A DNA stretch of 64,000 nt from Phorcus lineatus (Eukaryota; Mollusca; Gastropoda; Trochida; Trochidae): assembly GCA_921293015.1 (NCBI GenBank), contig OV121096.1, forward strand, positions 8,055,000 through 8,118,999, read 5' to 3'. A model generated the notes under the pieces. It worked only from the letters and a program-made list of their open reading frames with translations. It made no database searches and had not been told where the DNA came from. The first letter of the stretch is position 1; each line of letters begins with the position of its first letter. The position numbers and the translations under genes are program-made. Below, one piece after another: positions 29,747-63,277 of this stretch.

Positions 29747-30682
29747 TGGTGTACCACTACATAATGATATCAGGTTCGTTGACTTTATGGTTTATCACAT
29801 CATAATGGTAAGAGGTTCGTCAACACTTTATGGTGTATCACATCGTAATGATAACAGGTTCGCTGACACTTCATGGTGTACCACTACATAATGATATCAG
29901 GTTCGTTGACACTTTATGGTGTATCACATCATAATGGTAACATGTTCGTCAACCCTTTATGGTGTATCACTTCATAATGATAACAGGTTCGTTGATTTTA
30001 TGGTGAAACACATAATAATGATAACATTTTCTTTGACAATTTATGTTGTATCACTACATAATGGTAACAGGTTCGTCAAAACTTTATGGTGTATCATTTC
30101 ATAATGATAACAGGTTCGTCAACACTTTATGGTGTATCGCATCATAATATGATAACAGGTTCGTTGACAATTCATGGTGTACCACTACATAATGATATCA
30201 GGTTCGTTGACACTTTATGGTGTATCACATCATAATGATAACAGGTTTGTTGACTTTATGTTGTAACACTTCATAATGATAACATGTTCGTCAACCCTTT
30301 ATGGTGTATCACTTCATAATGATAACAGGTTCGTTGATTTTATGGTGAAACACGTAATAATGATAACATTTTCTTTGACAATTTATGTTGTATCACTACA
30401 TAATGGTAAAAGATTCGTCAAAACTTTATGGTGTATCATTTCATAATGATAACAGGTTCGTCAACACTTTATGGTGTATCGCATCAGAATATGATAACAG
30501 GTTCGTTGACACTTCATGGTGTACCACTACATAATGATATCAGGTTCGTTGACACTTTATGGTGTATCACATCATAATGATAACAGGTTCGTCAACACTT
30601 TATGTTGTATCACTTCATAATGATAACAGGTTCGTTGACTTTATGTTGTAACACATCATAATGATAATATGTTGGTCAAAAT
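29747..30682. repeat. 43-bp minisatellite, right block
   Basis: About 21 further copies, some shortened ('gttgactttatg') or variant ('cttcatggtgtaccactaca'). Variants recur in the same order at roughly 345-bp intervals, a higher-order repeat. Confidence 0.85.
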
Positions 30683-32928: not shown

Positions 32929-32955
32929 TCACGCTTCGCAGTTGTAAAATTGTAT
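32929..32955 (-). CDS. Gene B terminal exon
   Basis: Acceptor 'tctgtttcag', phase 0, I-Q-F-Y-N-C-E-A and TGA at 32929-32931. F-Y-N-C matches I-Y-T-C in gene A; gene A continues 18 residues further. Confidence 0.7.
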   Translation of the reverse strand: MQFYNCEA

Positions 32956-35900
32956 CTGAAACAGAAGTGCAATAATTCAGTGAGTCATGAATCAACGTAT
33001 TATTTATGAAACCTTTTAGCAAACGCCCATAATTCGGGTTACAGCGGAATACAAATTAGTGACCGGATACTAATCAACTATCAGTTAAATCTTTAAACAC
33101 AGAATAATATTTTTTTCTGAATGATTATACTAATCAATAAGCTTAATTTCCTAAAATCGTATACCATTGACCGAATTACAATGATTAAGCGAATTATCAA
33201 CATAACATTTTCTTGCTCTTTCTAACATACATATGAATAAAAAACTTAAATCAAAAGTTCTTAAATAAGGTTACACTTTACTAAACTGTTGATCTAAATT
33301 GATATATTGATATTGATATTGAGGGCCAGGAAGGGTATGATTGTAGGTTTAAAATATTACTTACATCTCTTATATCACCACTGTAATTCTTTGTTGCTGA
33401 GAATTGCTGTGAACCGAAAGTGACGCCACAGCTGTAGAGGTCAACATCAGGGGCTGCAACAAACAGTTCAAAGTATATCCTTATCAAAGTTCCTCTCAAT
33501 TTGTATACAACGTAAAAGCATTACGAAGTGATAAAAGATAGAGGTGAGGTGAGGTGAGGTGAGTTGGTGTTTAACGCCGCTTTCAAGATTATTTCACTTA
33601 TATCGCGGCTGCTAGTATTATTGCAGGGAGAAAGCCCGCAACACCATGGTGGCTATGCGTTGCGGTGAAACCTGCGAGCATCGGCTGGAACTAGCGAACC
33701 ATGGGTGATACTGCGCTGAAATTCAGTGTAGCATTGCACCCAAACCTGACTGCGTGTAGAACAATTCTCTACTGCAGACAAAGTTGCCGAGCCCCTGGCG
33801 GGATTCCAACCAGATAAAAGATAGAAAGTAACAAACTAGTTTAAACATATATTTAAGTAAGCAAGTAAAGACACTTGAAATGAATTTAGATCGACTGTTT
33901 TACATTCGGTACAGTATGACTCAATATACAAATACTGTCGATTTAAATTTATTTAGATTGAATAAATTGGGATCTTATTTACACCACGCCGACTATATCA
34001 TAACGTAGTGGAGCAATGTTATGATCTTATTTTAATGAGATTGCAAGTAATGAATAACTTTATGTACATATATCAAGTGTACTCAATTTGTCTTAAGACA
34101 ACAAATAAGGACATGTATACTGAAATGCAAAAACCTTTTGAATAAAAAGCATAATTAAGGTTCATGTTCAACAATAACCTTAAGTTATTTTAAGTCCTAT
34201 TAAAGAATAAAATAAAGCACACAATGTTTGAATGCTATATATTTACTACCCAGATGACAATTATTTGATCGGTAAACAATATTTATAAACTCAGTGGGTA
34301 GATCGGTGATGGGTGGATCCAAATATTTTCGAGGGTAGGCAGGGTGGCTACCCTGGGGGTCATCCAGCCAAGTGCAATTTTTCTGTTAATTTTTTACAGG
34401 GAAGAGTCGAAGCCCCTTCCTTTTGATAAGATAAGAGATAGTAATTTAGTAAATACATACCCCATTCTTGATGTATATATTCATAATTATCAGAACTGAC
34501 AGTCACTGTAAGAATTGTGGTTGTGTGTACAATCTTCACCGTCTTCCAGTCGCCGTCCGACAGACCCTGTAAATAATCAACGATTCTGAATTCCGTACAT
34601 ACTTGCTGTAATCATGGAAAGCAGATTGAACAAAATGAACTGGTTTTAATGAGATCGATTTAATATCATATCCTTTCAAAATCATAAACGAACCTTATTG
34701 ATATATTTCCCTTCAAACACTTCCACTAATTCAGTATCTCTCAAATCCACCATTTCCTCTTAACAAATATTCCTCTAATCCAAGACTGTTTCTTAACCAA
34801 CATCTCTATAATGCAACTTAACCATTTAACCTACATCCGTCTAATCCAACATCTCTCTAATCAAACATTCCTCCTAAACCTTAAGATGATTCTTGATATA
34901 TCTATTCTGCGGGGGAACTCTCTCTAATTCATGTACCGGTTTCAAAGAAATATCGGTTGCAAAACACAAGCACTTGTAAGCAGCTATTATGTCTTACCAG
35001 GGTAGATACAGGAACCCGGACAATTCCTCCTGACATGGTTTTGATGTCAACGTTGAGCACGTCCTTAGCCAAGGTAACCACGATGGAGCTGGCGTTGTCA
35101 CAGTCCTGACAGTAGGTTGAGGAGGCCAAAACCTGTGGGGTGTCCGCATTGAAGAGGTTCTGTTTGTAGCTAAAGACTAGGGTGGAGTTCCGTGATCGCC
35201 TGTCTCCAAGTTCGGTATATGTGAGACTTCCGTTCCCGCTGAAGGTTGCAATCCTGTTTCCTATGTTGACGTTGCCTAATATATTTCCATTTGAGTTTCC
35301 GTTGAAGCCATCGTTCATGGCGATCGAGCATGCTGTAATAGATAGAAATTCATTATTAGGTGTATATCTATGTATAAGCTAGCTATTTACGTGAAGTTAT
35401 GCATCATTGTGTTGCGGAATTATGTTTTTTGTATTAGATTTGTATTAATGGATGAGGTATGTACATGTACTTATTTATTACATACCTTTCCTTTTCATTG
35501 GTATCTTTTTATCGACCTTAAAGACATGGTCAAGAATGGTTTTTTTCAAAACAGTATGGTTTTGGTGCTGATAGAAGTTTGGATGGTGAAAAATGATAAA
35601 CGAAAATTTAATGGATGAACATGTTCTTTATTCACGAAAAGCAACTATTCGACATGAATTCCCTTGCTTTTGTCGTCATATGTTTGACATTGACTCTATA
35701 ACCAGGTCAAAATGTTTTCCCATAAACATGATTTCATAAGATTCCATTTTGAGAGATTCTTGTATATCTCATATCAATTTATCGATTAACTTTGTACGGA
35801 TACTTATGGCACCATGATTTATATGAGAAAAAACACCACAATGGAAACAAAACATTCAACCACTCAGTACTAACACCAATATGACTTTATTTAAGACATT

Positions 35901-38900
35901 TCGTAGCTACTGTTTTATGTATTTTCCGGAGAATGTAATCATAGGATTTTAGAAACATCGATGACTAACCGTACCTTATTGATCGGGACGTCGAACAGTT
36001 ATTTTGACGTCAATGAATGAAACTATTCCTAAATAGTGGGCTAACTACACTGCGCCAAGAAACAAAGTACCATGTTTCAAGAAATTTCTAGAAAGTAACT
36101 GAAACGTATCTAGAAAGCTACTAGTGCATATCTAGAGGGTGTCTACAGGATATGTTTATTTATTGCTGTACTGTATGTGATTGAGTTAACTTGTCCATTG
36201 AATATTGAGTTCTGAGGTCCCTTTTTACCGCAAACGTCTTACAAGGGTTAGACACAATACGTGAGAAACTTACACGGCAAAGGCTCTACGCAGTCACATT
36301 TGACCATGTCGTAGACACTCTTCGGCGAAGTACAGGTTCCCTCTGCCCAGCCTATGTTACCCAGCAGAAGCTGAAAGTTAGCCTTCATGTTGTTGTATGT
36401 GCTGGTCTGCCGTCCGGTGGGGATTCTGTCACATACATCTGAAAAGAGAAAAACACGTGTTAATGATGTCTCTTAGAAATTGTTTGCTTAAAGGCACTAT
36501 AGCTCTCTTTCTCAATGTTAATATTAATACATTTAGACGTAGTAACCTAATTAAAGACACTGTAGCACGTTATTTAAATTTGATTTCCTTTCAGTTTTTT
36601 CTTATTTATATTTGTTTATGCAAAATGTATTACATGTGTGTTCAGATGGTCAAACAGTTCACTTCTCAACCCAATTATTGGTTGTCGTTAAAATTAAACG
36701 TATCAAGCAAAAAATGCATGCGACCATTCTAGCGTTCACAGCCTTTTATCTTTAGAGTTTGGAACATTGACTAGCATAGCAGAACCCAACTTGCTATATG
36801 TTTGGTTTCAATTTCAAATAATTCGTTCTAAATCCAAACGTCTCTGATGTCAAAGCATACTCGGTTTAACACTTATATATTCAGGGTAGAGGAGCAGGGA
36901 TTGGTTATCTGTCGATGGAGGGAGGGGATTCAACCTGCCTTTGTGCAATTCAGTAAATACAATGAAAACATGGGGGATGGAAAACACCCCCTCCCCACCC
37001 ATCAGACAAAAGGCAAGATCATGTCCTTATACTGGAACTCACCTTTGCCATTGATACAAGGTCCTGGACACTCGTCGTTACAGTATGGGTCGGGCATACA
37101 CCCCCTGCCCGCCACGAACCGGAACTCCTTATCACAGCACTGAGCTATAGACGAGCCGTTCTCACAGGCCCAGTAGGCGCGACAGCTTCCTTCCATGTCG
37201 TATATGGTTTTACAATTCGGGTCGTTGCATTTCTCTGGAATAGTCATGATATTTTTTTTATAGGAAAGTTCTATTTTTTCATATGGTATAGTCAGATTGT
37301 CGCCATTATAGAAACAAATAAGAGACAAACAATGTTAATTACAAAATAATTAATTTCTCAAGAAATACCTCAAAGAACAAATAGAATTTTTTTCGGGAAG
37401 ACTTTTTTCCTAAGAAAATTTGAGACTTTTCTCCGGGACTGTTTTCCAAGGACCTTTTTTTCACATTTCAATATTTACAGATTCTAAAGTTACCTTTGGC
37501 ACACTTGACCTTCCACGAGTGGTCACAGCGAAGTGTGTCCGGGTCCCAGTAATAGCCGAACGGGCAAGACCGGACAATGCCGACGACTTCAGCAGTGACG
37601 TTAAAATAACACTGGACGTATTTGTCGCAGTCCTCGGGATGAAGAGCATAGCCAACTCCACCGATGTTCTCCGTCTCAATGCATATACCTTATCACGAGA
37701 ATTTAGAATAAAATAATAATTATATGATCAAAAGATTATCTCACATATCATCTTACAATATACAAAGAAAATCCCTAAATTTTCACCTCACAATTTTCCT
37801 ATAAAACCCCTTAAATATCATTTTACAATATGCCTAGAAACCCCTTAAAATCTGACTTAACAACATGCCTAGAAAATCATTTTGAATGACCTTACAAATT
37901 GTCTAGAAAACCCCTAAAATGACATCCCAAAATATGCCTATAAAACCTCGAAAATGACATATAATGGGACTAATAAACCCTTAAAATGACATCTTACAAT
38001 ATGACTAGAAACCCCCTAAAATAGTACAATATAATGTGTCTTAAGTATCTGATAATGCCCCCTTTAATCAATCTGAAAGTTTATAAATATAACCTTACAA
38101 TTTTCTTACAGACGTTACAAAGGAAACAGTTGTACAGTATCTATTTCTGTTATCTTGTATCGTCTGGTGACATATTTAATTATCGATTGAGTTATTAATT
38201 ATATTTATTTGCATTAGTATATCCCTTGCCGGAAAAAAATCTTATTTTTGTGACACAAGTTCTTTTTTCTATGAAGACGTTTATAGTTGATTTTTAATTA
38301 CATGAAATCATAACATATAGAGTGATGACAAGAAATGAAATAAAAAATGCTTGTTATTTCATCCCAACAAATATTATTTTCACATAAATAAGAATTTTGT
38401 TTAAGTCATACTGACCTTCAACATAACCTGAAACAGTAAACAAAATAATGTTGCAGAAAGTATTATTCAAAGTCAATATTGACATATAAAAATAAACTTA
38501 TATACCATTATTTAAATCTATCAAATCAATACTAGCATATTCCTTCATGACCGCTGAATAAAAGTCAGAAATTCCTTTTGTTTAAACAAGTTAGAGGTAA
38601 AAGTAAATACAAAGTAAATAAATGATAAATTTAAACTATTAAAAATATAAGTGAATTCAAAGAGGGAGTAATCATCTAAATAGAAATATAACATAATATT
38701 TTAACAATGTACGCTTAAAATACACACCTTAAAACATGACAGAATTTCAAGTTTTTGAAAAATGATACATATAGATGATATTGCACATAAATGTCAAATA
38801 TCATGTACTTATCATTTAGTGAAGCATAATTCTTTCTTTTCATATAAAAATGAAAAAAATTATCAAATTAATTTTTTTCATTGATACCAAAACATTTATT

Positions 38901-40602: not shown

Positions 40603-40665
<63 letters not shown>

Positions 40666-43600
40666 GTCAGTTCTCACGTGGGCACGGTTGTATCCCACAC
40701 GGAACGGGAGAATCGTTTTCAATTCCAGACCCGGCACAATACACCCCATTGTTGGATGGAGGTGGGTTGTTGCACTGTCGATATTTGGTCCTTTGAATAG
40801 TGGCGGTCGTACTTCCACAGGACACTGAACACGCAGGGTTATCCCAGTTGGTCCATTCCGACCAATTCCCGTCAACTGAAAATACGATGCAAATTGTTAT
40901 CATAGTCAAGTAGAAATCAACGTCAACATAAAATAATTTAGTATATAAAGAGTCAATTGATTTCAACTCATTTTGCACCATTAGGAAAGTTTGATTGTAG
41001 TGATGTAATGCGCCTGCTTTGAGAGAACTCTCCGTCATACCATCATGTCAACAAAACACAATCATTGTAGGTAATTGCAAGTTTGTTCATTTTTTACTTC
41101 TAAATGTGTAATATTTGGTTGAATTTGGACTGTTTTAAAGGGGCATTAGAACGTTTTTGAAAAAATATAAATTTTTAAATCTATACCAATACGGTAAGTT
41201 TTTGCCAAATATATTACCTACAGAGGGTCAAAACATCTCATTACTCAACCTGATGTTTCCTAGTGTTAAGCATCATCATAAAGCATATTTTTTGTGAACC
41301 CCTTTTAATCATTACTGGTAGGGAAATGGTTTCCCATAGTTTTACCGAACCTGGTACAATCGTGATACTTCTTTTTAAAAAAAAAGCATTGTCTTGCAAA
41401 TGGAAACATTTATTTACGACATCGTGAGATCACTTTATTTATCTCAATAACCTTTCAATCCCCCTTCAGACCTAAAAATCAGGCTCTTGGTAAATTCAAC
41501 GAGTTATGAGGGAGGGTTCTCTTCGTATAAAGGGTGTTCCATCATAAAGCTCTCACCTGGGCACGGGGAATTGTTACACGGTTCGAACTGTACATTGGTG
41601 ACATCCCCAGGGCAGCTTGTGCCTCCCTCAGAAGGAGGCGGGTTATCACATGAGCGCCGTCTCAGACGGAAAGCAAGGCCCCCGCCACACTCGACTGGGC
41701 ACGGTTGACTGATCACTGTCTGCCATTCGGACCAACTTCCATTAACTGAAGTTTATCGTGAAATAAGATATGAAAAGTAGACGGTTAAGACTTTTCCTAA
41801 CAAACATTCAAATGCATTTGGGTGGTAGGCTTAAAGACTCTGACGTATCGGCATACGGTCCGCCATTTTGTTTTGAGGTGAATGACATGAGACAAAGGCG
41901 CCGTACTTTTATTAATTTAATAAAATCATAAAAACAAACTACACTTATGGATATGATATGCACAGTTTTAAAATTGATATTATGTTAAGATTAATGCACA
42001 ATGCCCTTTAATGCCGTAGTAAGGATTTTAACGCTCGTTATGCCGATGAATGGCTTCACTTGCCATTCTCGTTTATCATACCAAATGTGCGCTCTCAGTA
42101 TCTTTAGTAACCTATTTTAACCTATAACACTGATGTGAAAACTTGAATGGCCCCTTTTAATTCGCTTCGACATGAATACCCCGATAGGACTGTCCTTTTA
42201 AAGCTAACCTCTGAAACATGAATGCATTTCGCATTTGTCATATATGAAGTAATTTGAACATGAAGAAAACATAATATAAGGAATTAAAAAAAAACGAAGC
42301 CATATTCAAGATGGAAAAGTTCAGCGCATGCGCAGGATATATTACCTGGGCAGACGCCGCTCCCACAAGGCACCTGGTCAGTATCAGTGTCGGATCCCTG
42401 GCAGTAGGAGCCATTATTAGATGGTGGTGGGTTCGTACAGTACCTCTTACGTTCTCTGAACTGCATCGAGTCTCCACACGTGACTGGACAAGCATACGTG
42501 GTCCACTGATCCCATCCCGTCCAGTTGCCGTCAACTAGAGATGAATACAGAATTAGAGGCTGACCAGAATGTTTGATAAAAGTCTCACATCTTGGGGCGT
42601 GTGATAAAGACATTTATTACCTACGAGGGCAATACATATCGGGGGCCATATTTTTCATACGATGCCCTAGTGCAAAATATAACTTTTTCATTGTGACGTC
42701 ACGTCAAAATCAATGCTTTCACGTCACAGTTCGCCTATGACGTTGTGTTCCAAATGCGTTTATGCGTACGTTTGTATGTTGATTTTGATTATTTTCTTTG
42801 ATTTCTCGACTTAAGTAATAAACAGAATATCATATTCGTGCCCATGACATACTGTGTTTACGACAGTCGTGCCTTAATTATATAATATCAGTATGTCCTT
42901 CGCTCTCGCTCGGGAAATACTAATATTGAGCACTTGAGTCGTAAACATAGTATGTCAGGACACTAATATAATATCCTCTATTTAAAACTATTATTTTGGT
43001 GTTATCGAAAGAAAAGGATATCCTTCTAATCTTTTCCCCTTTAAATCAAAGTAAAACATCATAATAGTCAACCAAATAATCCAAAGTATCCAAAGTATCC
43101 AAAGTATCCAAAGATGTAACGTATCAAGTGAAAACTGAGTGTGAACATGGTGTGAACACCTTTATGAAATTTTCAAAGGAAAAAGAGAAAAGGAAAAGCG
43201 TGATGAACCGATCTTTTTTTATTTGCTAGTTTATCCTTGTATTGATCGATTATTTTTTTGATTATATTTTCTTGCAATAGGTAACATTTGTTGTCCTTTT
43301 AATGAGATATATATTCCACTCAAAACCGGGATCAATGGGCCTATGAATTGTGTTGAATTGTTCAAAATATTCACTTAATGCATCTAAAATTTGTAAAGGC
43401 TCCCGAAGTGACTTTTAAATGAAAACATAGATCTTGTTGATTGTTGAATTTACATATTCTGTTCCTATCATATGATTTTGTTTCTTGTTATATTGTATCC
43501 CAGCAGGCAATCTGCCGTTGTATCAACGTTGAAACGACGTCGTTTATCAACGTTGAAATAACGTTGAAATTTGATTGGATTTGAAATTTGCGGCGACGTC

Positions 43601-49600: not shown

Positions 49601-52600
49601 AGAGATTTTTGAAACTAGCAGTAACTAATGCAACCGTTTTTATTTCAGCGTTAAAGACAGGCGAAAACAAAACTTAAACTGAGGGAACTGAAGCTGAAAA
49701 GTTTAGCCTGCTTTTCTAGTGTTCGAAAGTTTCACTTTTGTAATGCATGTTTACTGTTTTGTGAATAAATGCGAGCCCTATCCCCCTTCTTTTGAAGGTG
49801 ATTGAAAAAAAACCCCATAAAAAAGAAGTTTGAACAGGTTTTTCCAAAAAATTGAATTTCATACTTATGCAAAGATTCTGGTTGCAGGGCAAGCTCTCCG
49901 TCTCTGTATCAGTGCCTGGACAGTAAGCTCCACCATCTCTAGGTGCTGGACTGTTGCACTGCTTTGTTCTTGTCCTCACTAATGTTCCTCCTCCACAGGA
50001 ACGTGAGCATTCACCATTGACCCACGGGTTCCAATCGGACCATTGTCCATCGACTGTCAAACATCAAACATTCGGATATTCAGTATATCAATATGTACAA
50101 GTATATTTCCTTGGAGTCTGACACTGTCAGAGGATGTTGTGATACCCTAGAAACCTTAATAATACCATGCATTTATATTGATTGGCTCGTATTGCCCAGT
50201 ATTCAAACGGTATATCAAGGAGAATGTAAAATAGCTAATGCACACCGATTTTCGGACTCGAAGAATTAGTCTATATCTTTAACATCCTCTTTCCTGTGCA
50301 TTTTCACTGAAAAATATTTTAAAGAAACACTGATGTTTCTGCATAACATGTACGTTTATAGTCATCTGACTTTAGATAGTTACATATGAGTGTTTCAACA
50401 GATTTTATTTTTGAAATAGAGGCTTCATTAAAAATCATGAAAATACAACTGTACGTAAAATATCTTTTCATCGACACTCCTGCTCCGTAGAGGCTCACAC
50501 CGCACGCGTCACTTGAAACTATTTAGCTATAATGTGATATCATCTACCTTCACAAGGATCCGTATTGCATGCAAGTCGTTCCGTCTGCAAGCTATCACCA
50601 GGACATGATAGTCCACCATTTAGCGGTGCAGGTCTGTTGCAAACCCTCCTTCTATCTCGATCATAAGTACCTCCATTACAGGACGCTGTACATTCTGTTT
50701 CGCTCCATTGACTCCAGAAACCCCAGTTTCCATTGACTGAAGTGATATGTCAACAATCAAATATACAAGAAAAAAGTGAGCATGGCTCACATATTCCCGC
50801 AGCCCGTCTGATTTCTTCTCCCTCTTCCAAATTCAAATGTAAACATAGTCTATCATATAAAGTCCTATGTTTTGTGCCATAAAGATCGTGTGTCCCCATT
50901 GCAGCAACAGGGCCTCCTTTCACAAAGCCCTAAGGTGATCGTAAGTCCTTAAGGTAACCTTAGTGCAATGTTAAAGTATGGGAGTTAAGGTTAACCTTAG
51001 TTGAGGTTGCTTTGTGAAAGGAGACCCAGATCTGTAAATCGATCAAGAGCATCAAAAGGTGTTTCCAAAACCCAAATTTCATTCACCTAAGTGTGATACT
51101 GTCTGAAAAAACTTATCCCCATTGAAGCATCAGAACTGTATCGCTCCAAGTACAATTTCAGAAGCAAGGGTCATAACTCTGTTAAAAATAAAATTTCGGA
51201 AATGGCTTTCGAACTCGATCAAGAATATCATCAGGTGTATCCAAACCCAAAATTTCACTCCTCTGGGTGTAATACTTTCTGAGAAAATCTGTCCCCATTG
51301 TACACCATATAACTAGGTCCAAAAAATGACGTTTTCATGGAAACGACATAAACTGAATTCTTGAAATTCAAAAGTGGTCCAAAATGTAGACAAGGTTATG
51401 GTTAACAAGTGTTCAAAGCTTGTTTGAAATAGACCCAACGGTTTTTGAGTAGACTGACCTGGCGGAGAGACGGAATGACGGAATGACCGCTATATGCCCC
51501 CGCTACGAAGTAACCCCCGTATAATTACAATTCTTGACAACTTCAAGAACTTAGATTGAGGTAAAGGATTAAGCAATCCTGCACAGGAGATAGAATCATT
51601 ACACGACGCGGAACAGGTGCTCTCGCTAAATTCATTCCAGAAACCCCAGTAACCGTTAACTGAAATGATATTTCAAGCATCAGATACATGCCATTTCCAT
51701 ATTATCTGTTACAGATTGACTAAAGAACATTCAGTAACGGATAAAAGTCTAAAAAAGTCATAAACCTTAGATACCCAAGTTTCCGCGAAGTACAATGACA
51801 CGATAAGCACCAAAATACACTGTTCTGATAGTATTCCTTACATATTTCTTTTAAGGGTAGAAGGTATATGATAAAGTCTTCACGTTGAAGGTTAATCTAT
51901 AATCTCATTAAGTAAATACTAACGAAACATCAAGCATCAACTATTTAACAATGTTCTATGACATTTTCAGTAATATAACAATAAAATCCTAAGTTTGGGC
52001 AAATTCCATTTCTAGGTTAATGAGTCAAGATATTTTCTTTGATGTTTCTAATAAACCTTTAAAGCAATATGTCCGGTGCTACGTTTTGAGTAGTTTTTGA
52101 CCCAAAAGGCACAAATTATCTAAAAAGTTCGAATACTGATAACTCACATTTTAGCCTTTAACTGTGAGAATACGGACAGAATTTGAAGTATATTTAAGTA
52201 AACTATATATCTCCTTTTCGTAAGTTAACAGTTACTGTAATTATATCATAAACAGTTAAACACTAATTTAAAGGTGTTTTATAGAAAAACTACGATTAAT
52301 AATTTTTAAAAGATTACAGTGGCATTGAGGAGTGAGGTATGATGTGTATTGAATCTTGTAAAACATTACTATCATTGTTGAAAAGCTAGTACTAAAAATA
52401 TAGAAGAGCCTGGAGAGCTTTTAAATAACAGCAAATAGTTCACGTTTGTTTGCATCTTTCGTGCATTCAATTACTCCTCCGTCTCCCTCTCTCTCCTAAA
52501 TCATTTGTTTTGAGTCAATTTTAAACGAGTATGATGTGAAACAACCAATTCTCATTTCAATGATGTGTTGACAAATAAAGAAATCCAATTACCTATGCAA

Positions 52601-55600: not shown

Positions 55601-58600
55601 AATTTAACCAGTATCCGAACACAAACTTTTGTATGATAGGCCAACACCCTAGCCACTACGCTACTGTTCTCCTATTTTCAAAATTATTTCTAATTCGAAT
55701 AATACAAAAGACCACTCGTGATATTCCAGTCAAACCTAATGTTCAGATTGTAGTGCTGATTGATCTTTTATATGATCAGGCCTGGCCAGTTTTTAGAAAA
55801 TACCTATTTATATACTGCTTATGTATATAAATAGAGAATCTCACCCTCGTGTCTTCTGATATCAAATATATTAACACGAGTTGATAAAAGTTACAAATAT
55901 TCGAGACTTGTCGAGGATATTTTACTTTTATCAACAAGTGTTGATATATTTGATTCAGAAGACACGAGGGTGAAATTCTATTTATCATCCAAAATCATTT
56001 TTCATTACATTTGATTGACAAATGAACATTACTGAACACCCTGTTGTCCTAAGACTCCAAGTGCGGTGATGTCATAGCATTGTGACGTCGTAGTGTTATG
56101 ACGTCATAGCATTGTGATGTCATTACTTGATGATGTAAAACAACTGTGATGTCATATACTTGACTTCAGAGGGGCATTGTTCAAAATCTACTGCCAAAAA
56201 GATATCTCTAGGAGATATCGCTTGATCTTCCACAAGCGATATCTCCTGTGGAACAGAGATTTGGATGATAAAGCTATGTCTCAGTCTCCTTCTCTTCCAT
56301 AAAGCATTTGATGTTACAAATTTATAACTAGTATTTTGTTAAACACTTCCTTAAAAAAGACAGTAACCTATGCAAGGAATCTGGTTGCAGTCCGAGCTCT
56401 CCGTCTCTGTATCAGGGCCGGGACAGAAAGCTCCGTTATTTCTGGGTTCTGGATTGTTGCACTGCTTTGTTCTTGTCCTCACTAATGTTCCTCCTCCACA
56501 GGTGAGTGAACAAGTACCCGTAGTCCACTGGCTCCAGAAGGACCACGCTCCGTCGACTGAAAAATATCAAACAAGAGGCACAATATTTAACACAATTTGA
56601 ACATACCGTAGTAAATAGCCGTTTACATCTTAATCAGGTTGGTTTTATTCATAATGTCATTGAGCAGATTTGGATAACCACTACTGTTAAAATTGGATAT
56701 CTGAAATTGACGTCATTGTTCTACACCACTCCAAAGTGGCAGTGCAACGATGACAAGGATATTTTGTGTATGAAATTCTCTACAATTCACAAAGCAAACA
56801 ATCACTACCACGCAGTGGCAAATAAAATGAGCTTTTCTTCATCCACACTTGCATTCTTATGATCATATTTATGTAAATAAGATTAGGTATTCATTGTAAT
56901 TTAATTATTTTACGTACTTAGTTTTCTGAAAATATCTCATTAATTTTAATTTCATTCAAACACATCAGTATAGACATTTAACATGCTTGGCAATCTGAAA
57001 ATAAATCTTCTTTCGTTTGCACAAAAAAATTCAAATTCTACTTTTGAGAAATGTGAAACAACAAAGTACCGAGACACATTTGATCCTACTACAAGTACGT
57101 TACACACAAACGAGCTCACCTGGACAATTTTCAGGGTTGCATCTGAAAGTCAAAGTTTCCCGTGCGGTTCCAGGACACGGGTCTCCTCCGTTCTGAGCAG
57201 GTGGGTTGTTACATCTTCGTCTTCTTTCTCTCGTCACCGGAGGTCCTTCACAGGTCACAGGACAGTCGGGGTTACTCCATTCATTCCAGTTTGACCAAAC
57301 TCCGTCAACTGATAACGTATATGGAAAACCATTGTAGATAAGTAAAAATGATTATGCCATAGAGGATGTTTATCAAAGGGCGGATCTCTTATGATAGCTC
57401 AAGGTGCAACATTACTTATCATCTGGATGATTAACCTGTAACCTTCAGGACTTTTTTGATATTTAAGGAACTAAGTCACTAACAATGTCGTTGGTACTGG
57501 GAAAAGATTTCCATTAAGAACCACACAGTACAATGTCTTATCTAACATAAAACACCGACTTATATGACTCTCGGTTAGTCTTATTTTCTTGCTTTGACTG
57601 GATGTAATTGATTTCTGCTGCGAATATTAGTTAAATGGCAATGAGCAATATTTTTAAATCAGAACTATAACTTTCAAAGTGTCCACAATTTATATGTGCT
57701 GTCCTCGAACAAAACAATAATAAAAATACAAACCCCGACAAGGGCCAAGGTTACAGGATTGCTGTTCTGTCTCGGTGTCAGAGCCTTGGCAGGAGGCACC
57801 TCCGTTTTCTGGGGCAGGGCTGTCACAAAATTTCATTTTTGTCCGTATAAGAGTTCCATCTCCACAGGTCGCAGAGCAGTCACCATTTGTCCATTCGTTC
57901 CATCGAGACCATTGTCCATCAACTTTAAGAAATTGTAAGATAACCTCAAATGGGGGTCTCACAATGACCTCACGGTAAAAGTTCTACTGGAGGAGAAGCG
58001 GTTATGACACTCCTCTAAAATCTTCGTAACAGAAAGTTTTCACACGTCGGTTTTTAAATTCATCTAACGCTATTCCACTAACTAAGTCACAATTTAGTTA
58101 TCTATTAAGAACATTCTTCTAATTTTTTTGGGAATATTTGCTGAATTTAAGTTCCCTGCCCAACACATTTCTTGAATACTTTTATTATGTATGAGAAATA
58201 CGACTCTTAATATTCAATAAATTTAGAACTCTTTTTGGTGCGGTGCGCCCTCCCCTCCCCCCTCCAATAGCTCTTTCTTTATCAAAAGCATTCTTTGATT
58301 TTAAAAATGACCAGTTTAAGAAACTCATGCACCTTTTCAATAATAACATAATTTTAGTTCCTACTGCTGAGATTAGAATCGTAGTGGTCAATTTTTGGAG
58401 AAAAACCGTAAATTTTCATTGAAGAAAATGTGATTATCATTGTTGAATCCCCCATTTACATGCTGAAGTTAATCATATATACTCAACAAAATAAATTAAG
58501 GACCACCCTGAGTTGCGCTATTGTCATGCTATATAGTTCATATAACGATCCATATAATGCATGACTATCGACTTTGAAGTTCTCTCATCAACATTTTAAC

Positions 58601-61600
58601 TAATAGATGTCATGGTTAGAAGTACTTATGATAAGTTCAAACCTAAATGTCAACCCTAAACATGTGAGATAGTGAAGTCTTCCAGGAGGTTGTCAATAAG
58701 TGATCCAAATATGACAATGTAGCCACGCAACGAAATAAATGAAATGAACCTTTCAAAATAAATCACCTACCACCATTCTTACTTAAAAGGGGAAGGTCAA
58801 CGTTTGAAAGATTATTTCAAAAGTTCGCAAATAAAAATTAGTGTGTGACAATATTCTTTTTATTTTCAGATGGTCAAAACATCTCATTACTCTATCCAAT
58901 CATCCGAAGTCACCGAAAAATCGCTGGTGGCCATTTTAGTGTGAACACCTCATAATTTTTAAACGTAGGGGAATGGATTCGCATAGCCGATCATGATTTG
59001 ATTTTAAACTGCTATTTTGATTAAAACCCAGTGTCTTGCACTTTGAAACATCTATTCTCGTTATACTTATTTTCGTGGATCAATTACGGATCTAAACGAA
59101 ACGTGTTTATGTAGTTGTCCCTTTAAGGGTAGTTAGAAATACATATATAATGTTTATAGAAGCAACAAATTACACGTATATGTGTGATGTACTAATCTAT
59201 AGAATAAAGCTGTTGTCACCTAACGTTAATAGAATAAGTTAACAAAGTCAGGCGTTTACAATTTAAGTTTTCAATACAGAATTCGTTGGCATAGATCCGG
59301 AAGTGGTTTGAATTTTGAAAGATTTGCAAACCAAAACTACCTATTTTCATTTTAATGAACGGTTAGACTTAGAGTTAACCAGGACGAACATAATCAACCA
59401 AGTTGACATTTCTCACTACCGATCTGTGCTATATCATTTGTTGAATTATAATTATTTTGTTTTGGATATCTATGAAAATTAATAATTCAAGAACAAAGTC
59501 ACAATACCAATCATGAGGATTTGTAATGTTAATGAGCTTTAAAGATTCTCCTACTTTCCCATAGAGACGCTGCCTTATGGATACTGCTATGTATCAATCT
59601 TCACAATAAATATACAACAAAATATAAGCTACCTTTACAAGGATCTGTGTTGCAAGGAAGACGCCCAGTGTCAAGTGCTTGACCGAAACAGGATGCCCCA
59701 CCATTTTCTGGTGCAGGACTGTCACATGCCCTCCTCCTCTCTCGATCATAAGTACCCCCATTACAGGACGCTGTACAGTTTGTTGTATCACTCCACTCAC
59801 TCCAGTAGCCCCAGTTTCCGTTAACTGAAAGAAATTTGTAAATATCTTGAATTAGGTAAAATTGTATAATATAATATTATTTTCTTCATTAAAACTTAAG
59901 TATCAGAATTATGAAAAAAGAGGACCCTTGAAATATTCCAGTGATTCCAGTTCAAGTAATATTGAGTATTAAACATATCTCTTAATGTTGTGTTGATTGA
60001 ACTTCAAAATGTCCAGCCACAAATACAAATCAAATTGAAAAACAACCTTTAATGATACCGTAATATATCATCTTGAAATTTATTTACTGCTTTATAATGC
60101 TGCACTGTCGAAGAAGGGTACTTAAACATATTTAAGAAGGATATATTCAGTAATAGTTCCAGGAATTGCATCAAGCGTTAAGGGTTCAGTATTTCCTATG
60201 TTCAAACCATTGATTCCATCCATAAACCTCGGTACAAACAATTAATATATACAGCTGTGTTGAATATAGTAAGCAAAAGACAGCAACCTATGCAAGGATT
60301 CACGTTGCAGTCCAAGCTCTCCGTCTCTGTGCCAGGGCCTGGACAGTATGCTCCACCATCTCTTGGTGCTGGACTGTTGCACTGCTTTGTTCTTGTCCTC
60401 ACTAATGTTCCTCCTCCACAGGTGCGTGAGCATTCACCATTATTCCACGGGTTCCAAGGGGACCACTCTCCGTCGACTGAAATTTGGTCGTACAGTATTG
60501 TGAGATTGATGCAAATGATACATTATAATAAATTGTAATTGCCAAATCTTTATCACCAGAAAACCACTCGTTCCATAGGCTCAAAACCAAATCGACAGGC
60601 CAAAGAATAAAGATTAAATTTGACGTCACAACGAAAAAACTCCAATAGTTAGAGAACTTTATAACGAATTTGTAACCAATGTAAGATTCAGATAAAGTAA
60701 GTCTTACACATTAACAAATTCTTTAAGGCAGTCTAGCATGTTTTTTTCTGGAAATAAATTGAAATCACGTAAGTAGCCATTATTGTACAATTACAAAACG
60801 CATAAATTATGTTTGATACACGAGGTTAAAATATGAACATATTTCCTTAGATGCGTGAATATAATCTTTTCTAAACTTTATTGTTTCCCAAAGGCTTTCT
60901 CTATGACTAAATAAATGTGGATTTTTATGTTATTTGAGCGAGAGAGATTGCTATACTTTCACTTGGGTCCGCCCAATACGTCACGAACAATGGTTTTCTG
61001 ACATCTCAAACGACAAAATACTTAACATGAGCAAATACAATCGCTAGGTAGAAACTATACGTTCACATGTGTATATACTGAAATATGTCACAATCTATGT
61101 TTCACCTTTTGTATTAAATAAAATATTTTTTACCAATCACGAGGAATTTTAATGTCTCCATTTGAGCTTGAAAAGATACTCTAACTCTCCCATATAGATA
61201 TTGCCATATGGATACTGCTATGTATCAATCTTCACATGTCGGATATATAACAAAATATTAGCTACCTTTACAAGGATCAGTGTTGCAAAGAAGACGCCCA
61301 GTGTCAAGTGCTTGACCGGGACAGGATGCCCCACCATTTTGTGGTGCAGGACTGTCACATACCCTCCTTCTCTCTCGACCATAAGAACCCCCATTACAGG
61401 ACGCTGTACAGGGGGAAGTAGCACTCCACTCATTCCAGAATCCCCAGTTCCCGTTAACTGAAATTATATGTCAACAATCGAATATATGACAGTTCTTGAC
61501 AACATTGAAGAGAGTAACATTGAGGTAAAGGATCAAGCATTCCTGTTCAGGACGCTGACGCCAACCCTAGTATCGTTAACAAGAAGAAATATAAGAGTAC

Positions 61601-63277
61601 CTTGAAAACGATATCAAGTCAAAATTTAAAAAAATAATCAGTTAGAAATCTTATTGTTTGTTTTGTTGCTTTTTAGAATATTCGGTAAAGGCAAAATAAG
61701 TCCAAACTTGATAATCGACTTTATCAAATTGACAACCTTAAATAATAGAATTAAATATCAGAATGAAAGTTGCTTTCTGAGTTTGCATGTACAGAGTAAC
61801 AGGAATTTCAGAAAGGGTAAAGGTTTTCGTAATTCTTATACTTCAGACTATTCTTGTCTCTGTAAGTAATAAAACAACCAATAAACATGATAGATGTGTT
61901 GAATATAAAACAAGGTTTGACAGTCACCTATGCAAAGATCTTGGTTGCAGCCCAAGCTCTCCGTCTCTGTATCAGCGCCTGTACAGAAGGATCCGCCATC
62001 ACTAGGTGATGGATTGTTGCACTGCTTTGTTCTTGTCCTCACAAATGTTCCTCCTCCACAGGTGCGTGAGCATGTGCCGTTAATCCACGGGCTCCAAAGG
62101 GACCACCCTCCATCAGCTAGCGAACATTAAATAATCAGAGCACTCTATATTCAACAAAAATGAAATGTAATCTGTTCTTGATTGCAGGTTTATATCTAGT
62201 TGTATGGACCCTAAGTTGATGTATTTTAATGGACCATAACGTTGATGTATTTTACATAAATTAGCGAATCAAACTTATAAGTTGTACATGTACTTTTCAT
62301 GGATCTAGTTTAAAGTTACTCGTCTGTAAGGTTAACATTTCACCATTGAACCACCAGCGAGTTCGTGAATGTATTAATTTAATTTTAATATTAATATAAT
62401 TTCATTTCACTAATTTCTGTAACTTTTTAAGAAGAAAGGAATATGGTCTTCCAGCATTCTGTCAGTAAACTGAAAGATGACCATGGGTTCATTATGAGCT
62501 AATGTTGACTAACCTGACATAAAATAAACAATTGAAATCGCCTTTGCGATTCTTCGCTCTTGATTGAGGTGAACACTTAATTAAATATACGTATGTATCA
62601 TATAAGAAGAACATTTCATTATAATTGCATAGTCGTATGGATTTCAGATAAAACTTAGGGCCATTCGCATTGATTGAGGTGAACACATTATTTAATATAC
62701 CGATGTATAATATAAGAAGAACATTTCATTATTATTGCATAATCGTATGGATTTCAGATAAAACTTAGGGTCATGAGCAACCATTAGGGGTCGGATTATT
62801 ACAGTGAACACAAACCTTTTACTCCCTCAGTGCAAGTGCAGACTGATGTTGATGGTCGCACACTTTGATTAACATCTTTTGAATGCACAAATTGAAACAG
62901 ATTCTTATTATTCCTGACTCTGGCTTGATTTATGGTCTATCGACATCTATGTAAGTGACCCTTGACTTCAACATACGTCAGTTAAAAAAATTATTGTTGA
63001 AAGACTCATAATCATAATCTTATATATCTGAAATGTTTTAGAACGTTAAAATACATGATCCTCCTTCTTTAAAAATAAATTAACTCACTTGGACAAGTGT
63101 TAGGGTTGCATCTGAAAGTCTCAGTTTCTGAAGCTTCTCCAGGACACGGGTCTCCTCCGTTCCGAGCCGGTGGATTGTTACATCTTCGCCTTCTTTCTCT
63201 GCTTACCGGAGGTCCTTCACAGGTCACAGGACACGTGGGGTTACTCCATTCGTTCCAGGTAGACCACACTCCGTTAA
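32929..63277 (-). CDS. Gene B: giant secreted/matrix protein, 25+ TSP1 repeats joined to a Pif-like chitin-binding/laminin-G module (5'-partial)
   Basis: 33 coding exons are visible, in transcript order: 25 TSP1 exons from 63089-63277 down to 38905-39096, a possible 12-bp microexon (38416-38427), then 37494-37688, 37043-37234, 36274-36438, 34998-35332, 34461-34566, 33365-33453 and 32929-32955. After the split first codon the sum is 5859 nt, 1952 codons plus TGA, with no frame break. Each TSP1 has six cysteines, usually a W-x-x-W-x-x-W stretch (C-mannosylation site type) and often C-S-x-T-C-G (POFUT2 O-fucose type). The C-terminal module is peritrophin-A, second peritrophin-like, short cysteine-rich, then laminin-G-like, as in gene A. 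All TSP1 exons are phase 1-1, so they can be duplicated or skipped without frameshift. The N-terminus lies beyond 64000, so signal peptide and any other domain are unknown. An extracellular matrix or shell-matrix role is inferred. Confidence 0.85.
33365..33453 (-). CDS. Gene B laminin-G exon 3
   Basis: 89 bp, phase 1 to 0, acceptor 'tttgttgcag', donor GTAAGT. Encodes L-Y-S-C-G-V and Y-S-G-D-I-R-D, the F-x-G-x-I type strand of laminin-G folds. Confidence 0.75.
33542..33813 (-). mobile_element. SINE with perfect 12-bp target-site duplication
   Basis: Flanked by 'gataaaagatag' at 33530-33541 and 33814-33825. Read on the minus strand it begins with a B-box-like 'ggttggaatcc', carries a ~230-bp body and ends 'gcggcgttaaacaccaactc' plus (ACCTC)n. 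The A-box half of the tRNA head is missing. It lies in the intron between the second and third laminin-G exons of gene B. Confidence 0.85.
34461..34566 (-). CDS. Gene B laminin-G exon 2
   Basis: 106 bp, phase 0 to 1. Starts [12 protein letters not shown], the conserved 'l.DG.WH.V.v' motif of laminin-G domains. Acceptor 'ttatttacag', donor GTATGT. Confidence 0.85.
34998..35332 (-). CDS. Gene B laminin-G exon 1
   Basis: 335 bp, phase 1 to 0. Beta-rich, with [10 protein letters not shown], a C-Q-D-C pair and [10 protein letters not shown]. Acceptor 'tctattacag', donor GTAAGA. Confidence 0.85.
36274..36438 (-). CDS. Gene B short cysteine-rich module
   Basis: 165 bp, phase 1-1, donor GTAAGT, acceptor 'ctcttttcag'. 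Starts D-V-C-D-R-I and ends [12 protein letters not shown]; counterpart of gene A exon 4. Confidence 0.8.
37043..37234 (-). CDS. Gene B second peritrophin-like module
   Basis: 192 bp, phase 1-1. Cysteine-rich with G-S-C-R-A-Y-W-A-C, a CC pair and C-P-G-P-C-I-N-G-K; counterpart of gene A exon 3 with one extra N-terminal cysteine. Confidence 0.85.
37494..37688 (-). CDS. Gene B peritrophin-A (CBM14) domain
   Basis: 195 bp, phase 1-1. Spacing C-x17-C-x5-C-x14-C-x12-C-x7-C, with C-P-F-G-Y-Y-W; the last four gaps equal those of gene A exon 2. The acceptor is a less usual 'gataag'. An open frame in another phase (37461-37679) is a shadow. Confidence 0.85.
37738..38045. repeat. Diverged ~37-bp tandem repeat in gene B intron
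   Basis: Recurring 'acaatatgcctagaaa' and 'ccccttaaaatgacat' motifs, about eight imperfect copies. Confidence 0.65.
38416..38427 (-). CDS. Possible 12-bp microexon of gene B
   Basis: GTTATGTTGAAG between a good acceptor ('ttactgtttcag') and donor GTCAGT, phase 1-1, adding G-Y-V-E between the last TSP1 and the chitin-binding domain. It is frame-neutral, so the reading frame cannot prove it. Confidence 0.3.
38905..39096 (-). CDS. TSP1 repeat 25 (last)
   Basis: 192 bp, phase 1-1, donor 'ccag|gtaaaa'. W-S-D-W-S-A-W, C-G-R-T-C-G, all six cysteines. The most C-terminal TSP1, joined to the chitin-binding module. Confidence 0.88.
39457..39785 (-). pseudogene. Three decayed copies of a TSP1 exon 3' end
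   Basis: Segments at about 39457-39500, 39560-39600 and 39748-39782 each resemble the last ~35 bases of TSP1 repeat 24 plus its donor ('acttggacaggggtc', 'ttgccgcagctgac'). None has the rest of the exon. The last copy is only ~60 bases from the real exon. Confidence 0.6.
39625..39690 (+). repeat. SINE 3' end
   Basis: 'gctgaaatattgccaaagcg' then 'gcgttaaacaataactcact' and (CACT)n; splits the cluster of decayed exon ends. Confidence 0.65.
39810..39998 (-). CDS. TSP1 repeat 24
   Basis: 189 bp, phase 1-1. W-S-D-W-G-P-Y (third Trp replaced by Tyr), C-S-D-T-C-G-G-G, six cysteines. Donor GTAAGT. Confidence 0.9.
40153..40338 (-). CDS. TSP1 repeat 23
   Basis: 186 bp, phase 1-1. W-S-Q-W-D-Q-W, C-P-V-T-C-G, basic F-R-V-R-R-R-R run, six cysteines. 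The entry codon gives E rather than the usual V. Confidence 0.9.
40480..40667. repeat. (ATA/ATG)n microsatellite next to TSP1 exon 22
   Basis: Long 'gataatgataataataata' run ending about ten bases before the donor of exon 22. A poly-Ile frame over it is artefact. Confidence 0.85.
40678..40875 (-). CDS. TSP1 repeat 22
   Basis: 198 bp, the longest TSP1 exon. W-S-E-W-T-N-W, C-S-V-S-C-G, six cysteines, ending P-C-G-I-Q-P-C-P. Confidence 0.9.
41134..41472. mobile_element. MITE family M copy, gene B intron
   Basis: Contains 'gtcaaaacatctcattactc', 'cattgtcttgcaaatggaaa' and 'gagatcactttatttatctc', shared with 16320, 31600 and 58783. Confidence 0.55.
41557..41745 (-). CDS. TSP1 repeat 21
   Basis: 189 bp, phase 1-1. 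W-S-E-W-Q-T-V (third Trp lost) and C-P-V-E-C-G, where the O-fucose Ser/Thr is replaced by Glu. Six cysteines kept. Confidence 0.9.
42346..42534 (-). CDS. TSP1 repeat 20
   Basis: 189 bp, phase 1-1. W-T-G-W-D-Q-W, C-P-V-T-C-G, six cysteines, ends P-C-G-S-G-V-C-P. Confidence 0.9.
42843..42962. repeat. Fold-back palindrome with 'tcgctcggg' loop
   Basis: 'gacatactgtgtttacgac' is inverted as 'gtcgtaaacatagtatgtc'; loop contains 'ttcgctctcgctcgggaaa'. Confidence 0.65.
43080..43116. repeat. 9-bp tandem repeat
   Basis: 'tccaaagta' repeated four times. Confidence 0.8.
43499..44404. mobile_element. 906-bp inverted-repeat DNA transposon, non-autonomous
   Basis: Ends 'cccagcaggc' and 'gcctgctggg' with ~190-bp subterminal regions packed with 'caacgttgaa' and 'acgacgtcg' palindromes. 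The AT-rich middle has no transposase. Flanks give at most an 'at' duplication. CCCAGCAGGC-ended elements are a recurrent type in aquatic animal genomes as I recall. It sits in the intron between TSP1 repeats 19 and 20. Confidence 0.8.
44675..44863 (-). CDS. TSP1 repeat 19
   Basis: 189 bp, phase 1-1. First Trp is replaced ([10 protein letters not shown]). C-S-R-S-C-G, six cysteines. Confidence 0.88.
45610..45798 (-). CDS. TSP1 repeat 18
   Basis: 189 bp, phase 1-1. [15 protein letters not shown], six cysteines. Confidence 0.9.
45780..46270 (-). repeat. Decayed tandem copies of a TSP1 exon start plus intron
   Basis: After the real acceptor at 45799, related segments recur with 'ccgttgattgaaaacaagca', 'ccgttgactgaacacaatca' and 'agtctgaacacaatcaatga'. 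Each copies the first few exon bases, the acceptor and the adjoining intron. Confidence 0.5.
46799..46987 (-). CDS. TSP1 repeat 17
   Basis: 189 bp, phase 1-1. W-S-N-W-N-E-W, C-P-V-S-C-G-G, six cysteines. Confidence 0.9.
46965..47290 (-). repeat. ~110-bp tandem repeat starting in TSP1 exon 17
   Basis: 'ccagaatccatcaactggat', 'caagaatcaatccattacat' and 'tcagaatccatccgctagat' start three copies, each followed by 'taatctctcat'-like and 'tcaattgtgatttt'-like text. The first copy includes the true exon start. Confidence 0.6.
47770..47945. repeat. ~55-bp tandem repeat beside TSP1 exon 16
   Basis: Three copies of 'aatttggcatctagttgtca' plus 'aatccttgttttc', ending at the exon 16 donor. Confidence 0.65.
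47949..48137 (-). CDS. TSP1 repeat 16
   Basis: 189 bp, phase 1-1. W-T-Q-W-T-L-W, C-S-V-T-C-G, six cysteines; entry codon E. Confidence 0.9.
48600..48788 (-). CDS. TSP1 repeat 15
   Basis: 189 bp, phase 1-1. W-S-P-W-N-E-W, C-P-V-T-C-G, six cysteines. Donor GTTAGT. Confidence 0.9.
49865..50053 (-). CDS. TSP1 repeat 14 (alpha type)
   Basis: 189 bp, phase 1-1. [23 protein letters not shown], six cysteines, ends N-L-C-I. Confidence 0.9.
50548..50736 (-). CDS. TSP1 repeat 13 (beta type)
   Basis: 189 bp, phase 1-1. [19 protein letters not shown], ends C-N-T-D-P-C-E. It lacks a long ATG-started frame and is easily missed. Confidence 0.88.
50765..51527. mobile_element. ~760-bp insertion with internal ~175-bp duplication; empty site known
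   Basis: The matching intron beside repeat 3 reads straight through ('caatcgaatata' to 'agttcttgacaac'), while here the same flanks ('caatcaaatata', 'attcttgacaac') are ~760 bp apart. Inside, 'cgatcaagagcatcaaaagg' (51039) and 'cgatcaagaatatcatcagg' (51214) begin two copies of an ~88-bp segment. No coding capacity. Confidence 0.65.
50910..51027. mobile_element. 118-bp palindromic MITE nested in the insertion
   Basis: 'gggcctcctttcacaaagc' and 'gctttgtgaaaggagaccc' form the ends. Confidence 0.75.
51575..51659 (-). pseudogene. Truncated beta-type TSP1 exon
   Basis: Keeps the acceptor and start ([16 protein letters not shown]) then loses the remaining domain and the donor. Closest to repeats 3, 5 and 13. 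It is followed upstream by the same intron text as repeat 13. Confidence 0.75.
52593..52781 (-). CDS. TSP1 repeat 12 (alpha type)
   Basis: 189 bp, phase 1-1. [20 protein letters not shown], six cysteines. Confidence 0.9.
52912..53002. repeat. (TATG)n microsatellite
   Basis: About 20 copies of 'tatg' with a few 'tata' and 'tttatg' interruptions. Confidence 0.95.
53256..53444 (-). CDS. TSP1 repeat 11 (gamma type)
   Basis: 189 bp, phase 1-1. [26 protein letters not shown], six cysteines. Confidence 0.9.
53896..54084 (-). CDS. TSP1 repeat 10 (delta type)
   Basis: 189 bp, phase 1-1. [15 protein letters not shown], six cysteines, ends C-N-A-G-L-C-S. Confidence 0.9.
54847..54950. repeat. Fold-back palindrome, 30-bp arms
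   Basis: 'atttgacatttctggtcgaa' is inverted as 'ttcgacaagaaatgtcaaat'. Confidence 0.7.
55139..55327 (-). CDS. TSP1 repeat 9 (beta-like, mosaic)
   Basis: 189 bp, phase 1-1. Ends like beta repeats (N-W-G-F-W; C-N-T-D-P-C-K) but its core [10 protein letters not shown] is alpha-like. Six cysteines. Confidence 0.88.
55829..55984. repeat. Fold-back palindrome, ~40-bp arms
   Basis: 'tcaccctcgtgtcttctga' is inverted as 'tcagaagacacgagggtga'; arms extend through 'atcaaatatat'. Confidence 0.75.
56368..56556 (-). CDS. TSP1 repeat 8 (alpha type)
   Basis: 189 bp, phase 1-1. [20 protein letters not shown], six cysteines. Confidence 0.9.
57120..57308 (-). CDS. TSP1 repeat 7 (gamma type)
   Basis: 189 bp, phase 1-1. 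[15 protein letters not shown], nearly the same as repeat 11. Confidence 0.9.
57734..57922 (-). CDS. TSP1 repeat 6 (delta type)
   Basis: 189 bp, phase 1-1. [15 protein letters not shown], six cysteines, ends C-N-L-G-P-C-R. Confidence 0.9.
58783..59126. mobile_element. MITE family M copy, gene B intron
   Basis: Contains 'gtcaaaacatctcattactc', 'ggccattttagtgtgaacac' and 'ggattcgcatagc'; ends 'gttgtccctttaa'. Confidence 0.55.
59633..59824 (-). CDS. TSP1 repeat 5 (beta type)
   Basis: 192 bp, phase 1-1. [19 protein letters not shown], six cysteines. Downstream intron matches that of repeat 3. Confidence 0.9.
60288..60476 (-). CDS. TSP1 repeat 4 (alpha type)
   Basis: 189 bp, phase 1-1. [20 protein letters not shown], six cysteines. 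Confidence 0.9.
61266..61457 (-). CDS. TSP1 repeat 3 (beta type)
   Basis: 192 bp, phase 1-1. [19 protein letters not shown], six cysteines. Confidence 0.9.
61548..61580 (-). pseudogene. Remnant of a beta-type TSP1 exon start
   Basis: Minus strand 'gttaacgatactagggttgg' resembles the beta start 'gttaacggttactggggttt', next to 'gaggtaaaggatcaagca' which also borders the remnant at 51575-51659. Confidence 0.5.
61928..62116 (-). CDS. TSP1 repeat 2 (alpha type)
   Basis: 189 bp, phase 1-1. [20 protein letters not shown], six cysteines; entry codon gives A. Confidence 0.9.
62561..62779. repeat. 110-bp tandem duplication in gene B intron
   Basis: Two copies, 62561-62670 and 62671-62779, each starting 'tgattgaggtgaacac' and ending 'aaaacttaggg'. 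Confidence 0.9.
63089..63277 (-). CDS. TSP1 repeat 1 in window (gamma type)
   Basis: 189 bp, phase 1-1. [15 protein letters not shown], six cysteines. Its phase-1 acceptor needs a further upstream exon outside the window. Confidence 0.9.

Follow-up and report, generated by a model that had tools for sequence, protein, structure and literature searches.

The closest described systems are shell matrix proteins of the Pif/BMSP kind. As set out in the classification of this family, Pinctada fucata Pif and Mytilus galloprovincialis BMSP have a von Willebrand A (VWA) head, chitin-binding (CB) and CB-like domains and a partial laminin G (LG) region, and are described with VWA, CB and LG domains only (PMC11291548). 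P. fucata Pif is in addition cleaved at a dibasic site and includes an acidic part, Pif80, that binds mineral; pull-downs with its VWA region recovered Pif 80, nacrein and a pair of proteinase inhibitors (PMC11291548). BMSP carries several VWA domains, four in tandem in the bivalve type (PMC11291548), and gastropod BMSP-like proteins have been reported with two or three. PifCCP, described from bivalves only, has a VWA domain, an array of Sushi/CCP repeats and then a CBM14 and LG tail (PMC11291548). The main text of this eight-subfamily classification contains neither "thrombospondin" nor "tsp" (PMC11291548).

Thrombospondin type 1 (TSP1) repeats have been listed together with such domains in shell proteins. 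Haliotis laevigata idb_25730 (Comp68740_c0_seq1_1) is given as "VWA, TSP1, chitin-bd_II (2x), ConA_like" and was detected in nacre only, where it is far less abundant than another VWA/chitin-binding protein (PMC6003135). Tridacna crocea Tcr_684094, from the shell, has a signal peptide, TSP1 (PF00090), chitin-binding (PF01607) and VWA domains (PMC8217771). A limited-confidence, one-peptide match from Laternula elliptica shell has thrombospondin, concanavalin-A and LamG domains (PMC5105077). Pif-derived genes also occur in tandem on one chromosome in oysters, and in other bivalves, as the Pif_LamG3 cluster, in which one gene gained SCR by shuffling and loss of VWA in another gave LamG3 (PMC10543319). 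The changes named for this cluster concern SCR, VWA, CB and LG; "thrombospondin" and "TSP" are absent from the running text of that paper (PMC10543319).

Here we describe gene C, one of four tandem genes (A to D) in Phorcus lineatus. The window is a 64,000-nucleotide stretch of a 958-Mb genome (C37:8055000-8118999), to which 60 kb of upstream sequence was added; window numbering is continued beyond its ends. From its domains, we read gene C as encoding a further variant among Pif/BMSP-kind proteins, a chitin-anchored matrix bridge with a long stalk. A preliminary description of the window had raised the possibility of an undescribed class of matrix protein. Comparison with published descriptions gave this no support: idb_25730 has the same listed domains (PMC6003135), Tcr_684094 has three of them (PMC8217771) and PifCCP has a repeat stalk, and we rejected an undescribed domain combination on the first two. 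In view of the oyster cluster (PMC10543319), we likewise rejected the idea that Pif-type genes standing in tandem and differing in their modules had not been described before. Thus, neither the architecture nor the changing cluster is new. The proposed search for the same architecture in other molluscs succeeded in part. The listed domains of idb_25730 and gene C are alike, compared by description only; that listing notes G/T-rich repeats and does not state the number of TSP1 modules or any Ig domains (PMC6003135). Tcr_684094 differs in having a transmembrane segment marked and no laminin-G or Ig listed, and its module number and order are not in the text (PMC8217771).

Stalk, tail and head of gene C

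The window contains 25 intact TSP1 exons on the minus strand (63277-38905), each encoding one module, each 186-198 nt long and in phase 1 at both ends. The frame runs on from the array through the tail exons to a stop at 32929. The earlier count of at least 25 repeats with 1580 residues was borne out (the 25 modules sum to 1580 aa), as was continuation in frame into peritrophin-A, peritrophin-like and laminin-G-like exons. A further 13 TSP1 exons lie upstream of the window, up to 82779, and are preceded by head exons. The full model reads SP-VWA-Ig-Ig-TSP1x38-CBM14-CBM14L-LG and comprises 50 exons, whose 9474 nt of coding sequence specify 3157 aa. It spans 55.9 kb (88855-32929), the first 24.9 kb of which are outside the window. 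The features of gene C are as follows, with stalk and tail exons from the splice model and the TSP1 exons also matched by their own profile.

88855-88789, minus: signal-peptide-like exon (by eye and hydropathy)
88294-87722, minus: VWA exon (PF00092, 92.4 bits)
87471-87211 and 85735-85490, minus: two Ig exons (upstream sequence)
63277-63089, 62116-61928, 61457-61266, 60476-60288, 59824-59633, 57922-57734, 57308-57120, minus: TSP1 exons 1 to 7 of the window
56556-56368, 55327-55139, 54084-53896, 53444-53256, 52781-52593, 50736-50548, 50053-49865, minus: TSP1 exons 8 to 14
51589..51659, minus: broken TSP1 module covering just the first 24 positions of the profile, omitted from the model
48788-48600, 48137-47949, 46987-46799, 45798-45610, 44863-44675, 42534-42346, minus: TSP1 exons 15 to 20
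41745-41557, 40875-40678, 40338-40153, 39998-39810, 39096-38905, minus: TSP1 exons 21 to 25
38427-38416, minus: 12-nt microexon, linker (G)YVE(G) between the last TSP1 and CBM14
37688-37494, minus: CBM14 (peritrophin-A chitin-binding) exon (Pfam CBM_14, 38.2 bits, cut-off 22.1)
37234-37043, minus: CBM14-like exon
36438-36274, minus: short Cys-containing exon, E3, with matches in all four cluster genes
35332-34998, minus: laminin-G-like exon 1, of which the Laminin_G_2 match covers the end only
34566-34461, minus: laminin-G-like exon 2 (Pfam scan)
33453-33365, minus: laminin-G-like exon 3 (Pfam scan)
32955-32929, minus: last coding exon, the fourth LG exon, IQFYNCEA and stop

The modules qualify as TSP1 repeats. 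All 38 have six Cys, 37 have WxxW and 28 have the CxxS/TCG motif; they are joined without linkers, and the closest sequences of solved structure are those of thrombospondin-1 and properdin. When the window modules were scanned singly, 22/25 reached the Pfam TSP_1 cut-off (PF00090). The modules at 40875 (16.1 bits) and 40338 (20.1 bits) fall below it, and the last module (39096) has no PF00090 match and matches TSP1_CFP_C only, below cut-off. A profile built from the 25 modules matches all of them. In 20 dinucleotide shuffles of the window (E<=0.01), one match arose with the CBM14-like profile and two with the LG1 profile, but none with those for TSP1, CBM14, VWA and Ig. AG/GT borders were demanded while building the TSP1 exons, so the count of 49/49 such borders is not an independent control; the even phase and length of the exons is an independent test. 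The broken module at 51659 has a weak sole in-frame donor, at 51507, and is unlikely to be spliced into the mRNA. Values of dN/dS were 0.18-0.83 in 26/26 TSP1 exon pairs (taken within module types, not independent of one another, one module left out) and 3 intron pairs were alignable among 19 introns. Thus, the TSP1 exons look selected as protein.

The frame is unbroken over the 50 exons and every junction up to the first LG exon is in phase 1. Pfam scans in two pieces, from the signal peptide to the seventh TSP1 and from the last TSP1 to the stop, gave matches to VWA (92.4 bits), I-set (46.8 bits, two stretches) and TSP_1 (78 bits) as well as the tail domains. The Laminin_G_2 match is weak (24.6 bits, cut-off 22.9) and covers residues 331-432 of the 437 scanned from the last TSP1 to the stop. 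The CBM14-like exon had no Pfam match on scanning. The CBM14 of gene C is 64% identical to that of gene A, 61% to that of B and 26% to that of D.

The preliminary description had placed the TSP1 array where Pif has its VWA domain. We rejected this replacement: the VWA exon is present about 24 kb upstream of the window and is oriented like the array, and the apparent replacement was due to where the window was cut. The gene C model thereby corrects a reading that would name a new protein class through window truncation. This single VWA exon retains the MIDAS residues (DGSES, the T in TATH, and TDG). In the modelled protein the TSP1 array is a stalk that separates a Pif-type head from a Pif-type tail, comparable to the Sushi/CCP repeats of PifCCP. 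Gene C has the features by which Shimizu et al. (2024) describe the Pif/BMSP family: VWA upstream, CBM14 and/or CBM14-like domains after it (as in 38/50 members) and, as in most members, a (partial) laminin G at the C-terminus. It lacks a characteristic feature of each of three subfamilies. The modelled protein has no acidic low-complexity Pif80-like region (Asp is 6.2% overall, and the protein ends in IQFYNCEA), and the dibasic cleavage of Pif was not seen either. Its one VWA domain differs from the four in tandem of bivalve BMSP, and Ig and TSP1 domains, which gene C has in addition to those of Pif and BMSP, stand between VWA and CBM14 in place of Sushi/CCP. PifCCP and gene C are nevertheless alike in having a stalk of one repeat type between VWA and tail (PMC11291548).

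The junction of stalk and tail

The weak point of the model is the junction between 38.9 and 37.7 kb, because a signal-peptide-like exon that starts with ATG (38485-38416) overlaps the microexon. This candidate first exon is in phase 1 and in frame with CBM14, and encodes 23 residues. The locus could then hold two genes, an SP-VWA-Ig-Ig-TSP1 gene ending at about 38.9 kb and a stalkless, gene D-like tail gene that begins at 38485 and supplies a signal peptide of its own; the 12 nt at 38427-38416 would be the end of its first exon. Gene D is a precedent for a stand-alone tail with its own signal-peptide-like exon. The failure of the last TSP1 module to match PF00090, the weak laminin-G match and the missing Pif80-like region also count against reading gene C as one gene of the Pif/BMSP kind. 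The hydropathy peak of the ATG exon is 2.32, compared with 2.62-3.14 for the starts of genes A to D.

Gene A, with the same layout, bears on this junction. Its last TSP1 exon is separated from CBM14 by a 244-bp intron, in which ATG-initiated stretches peak lower (1.91 and 0.78). That exon ends in 12 extra nt (VDVA), the counterpart of the 12-nt microexon of gene C. The abalone protein in print lists all of these domains together, and gene C has a single head, a single stalk and a single tail, arranged as elsewhere in the family. We consider two genes improbable. That the TSP1 array and the Pif-type tail are joined, as first described, is supported by the reading frame, the exon phases and gene A; splice logic and paralogues thus support a single gene.

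Proposed function and site of use

CBM14 is a chitin-binding domain. WxxW and CxxS/TCG motifs carry C-mannose and O-fucose, and a TSP1 module is about 5-6 nm long, which would give the gene C stalk a length of roughly 0.2 micrometre. We think it likely that gene C is one gene encoding a secreted, 3157-residue matrix protein of the Pif/BMSP kind that bridges chitin to the soluble matrix, secretion being predicted by eye and from hydropathy. The C-terminal CBM14/LG tail would anchor the protein to the chitin of the shell (or another cuticular) organic framework. The linkerless TSP1 modules and their two motifs suggest a stiff, glycosylated spacer, and the array may act as a long rod, probably glycosylated, that fixes a spacing. 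Other matrix proteins would be bound by the VWA head through or beside its MIDAS residues, and the protein as a whole would then bridge chitin to the soluble matrix. By analogy with Pif, the tail probably anchors in chitin and the head probably recruits matrix proteins. Mineral binding of the Pif80 kind is not expected, given that the modelled protein lacks an acidic part like Pif80.

The protein need not be used in shell mineral, because in oysters three Pif/LamG3-type genes are expressed where periostracum forms and the ancestral role is proposed to be periostracal (PMC10543319). The same protein might thus act mainly in periostracum, operculum, egg capsule, gut lining, radula or another chitinous structure, and the genome has many VWA relatives (at least 97 matches to the gene C VWA at E<=0.001, with 150/157 candidates scored; the best 20 are all on C37). 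Detection of proteins with this domain set in abalone nacre (PMC6003135) and clam shell (PMC8217771) argues for deployment in the shell, and we regard a main site elsewhere as somewhat unlikely.

The tandem cluster and its relatives

Genes A to D all lie on one strand, whereas the duplications of the oyster cluster are termed reverse tandem (PMC10543319). The neighbors of gene C are listed below in extended window coordinates.

164163-140395, minus: gene A, SP-VWA-Ig-Ig-TSP1x28-CBM14-CBM14L-E3-LG (profile matches, splice reading)
125251-100900, minus: gene B, signal-peptide-like start, Ig, Ig, EGF x7, Ig, EGF x8, CBM14, CBM14L, E3, LG (profile matches)
22155-16199, minus: gene D, stalkless paralogue without VWA, downstream of gene C (splice model)
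22155-22098, minus: gene D signal-peptide-like exon
21570-21361, minus: gene D CBM14
20617-20441, minus: gene D CBM14-like
19715-19572, minus: gene D E3 (end set by eye)
18469-18111, 17208-17103 and 16275-16199, minus: gene D LG (last exon unplaced)

The exons of gene B were taken from profile matches and are not fully spliced (C37 about 8180250-8155900). No VWA was found upstream of its Pif-type tail, which follows an Ig/EGF stalk. The CBM_14 match of gene D scores 25.3 bits (Pfam), and its layout is that of LamG3 in the bivalve cluster (PMC10543319). The tails of genes A, B and D, scanned without their last exons, had no Pfam laminin-G match. The VWA of gene A has lost the MIDAS aspartate and reads TIG where TDG is expected. 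Between genes C and D there are minisatellites of 43 and 47 bp (29747-30679 and 26621-26955).

In cluster order the spacers are TSP1x28, Ig+EGFx15, TSP1x38 and none. The TSP1 modules of genes A and C group by gene, with 4 label changes on the tree compared with 21.6 in shuffles, on a tree in which 36/63 inner branches are drawn open. Most of modules 10-27 of gene C belong to four types that recur in block order, with identities of up to 89%, and the modules at both ends of the stalk have at most 58% identity with any other module. This contrast between block-repeated and diverged modules suggests that the gene C stalk grew from the middle. We tentatively propose, at somewhat less than even chances, that the locus is a stalk-swapping cassette system, in which the same tail is kept and spacers are exchanged, and lengthened by exon-block duplication, tuning the distance and target of chitin bridging. 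Heads may have been exchanged too. Three VWA copies at 4.45-4.59 Mb share 67-71% identity with that of gene C, but the VWA of gene A shares only 29%, whereas the CBM14 domains of A and C are 64% identical; either heads were exchanged, or the gene A head changed fast after loss of the metal site.

The differences in stalk could instead come from gene-model error, with upstream exons of gene B or D missed. All four models were built without transcripts, the incomplete splicing of gene B leaves room for such a gap, and a gene B VWA could have diverged beyond detection. Signal-peptide-like starts lie directly upstream of the first domain in both B and D, and the genome search for VWA (E<=0.001, the same 150/157 candidates) recovered those of A and C and none in B or D; we therefore find such an error unlikely. 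If true, stalk swapping generalizes the gain of SCR and loss of VWA proposed for the bivalve Pif/LamG3 cluster. We did not find these four spacers on one tail type in one cluster in the literature searched. Nor did we find 38 modules, two Ig domains, or neighboring TSP1 and EGF stalks there, a weak negative given that the search covered the main text of papers from part of the journals. The TSP1-stalked gene model and its differently stalked paralogues form a natural series for relating spacer length and type to matrix spacing in molluscan chitin frameworks.

Similar domain orders are found elsewhere on C37. The CBM14 of gene A has 19 genome matches at E<=0.01, and 13 of these fall on C37, although it makes up 4.7% of the assembly; TSP1 genome counts are lower bounds (150/593 candidates scored). 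At 39.24-39.30 Mb there are two series of VWA, TSP1 and CBM14 matches, each in this order and on one strand, judged by order of matches only.

C37 39243121, 39253255-39264024, 39267656, one strand: first VWA-TSP1-CBM14 series
C37 39286088, 39296951, 39298367, one strand: second VWA-TSP1-CBM14 series

A CBM14 match (39215511) and a TSP1 match (39228507) precede both series and are part of neither. At 32.10 and 32.13 Mb, VWA lies 1.7 and 4.8 kb before CBM14, with no TSP1 between them among the matches listed. Eight VWA copies and three TSP1 matches lie at C37:4405149-4599240, with no CBM14 among the matches listed; these copies, at 4.41-4.60 Mb, may be VWA-TSP1 genes without a Pif-type tail.

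Several short frames on the minus strand of the extended window (about 199000-290000) share, by eye and among the frames listed, a pattern like CLxxxxGxGC...C. A stricter version matched one frame only, at 290037, and two frames of this type that were scanned had no Pfam match. Outside C37, 16 hemocyanin-unit matches lie in two loci of eight (C12:7646582-7661095 and 16557773-16572398). Their best solved match is 3j32, "Hemocyanin isoform 1", from an abalone; most bivalves are not known to have this hemocyanin, and the two loci thus indicate a gastropod. In the window itself, a short frame on the plus strand (4099-4446) starts with a signal-like stretch and matches the PAN domain below threshold (15.5 bits, cut-off 21.4).
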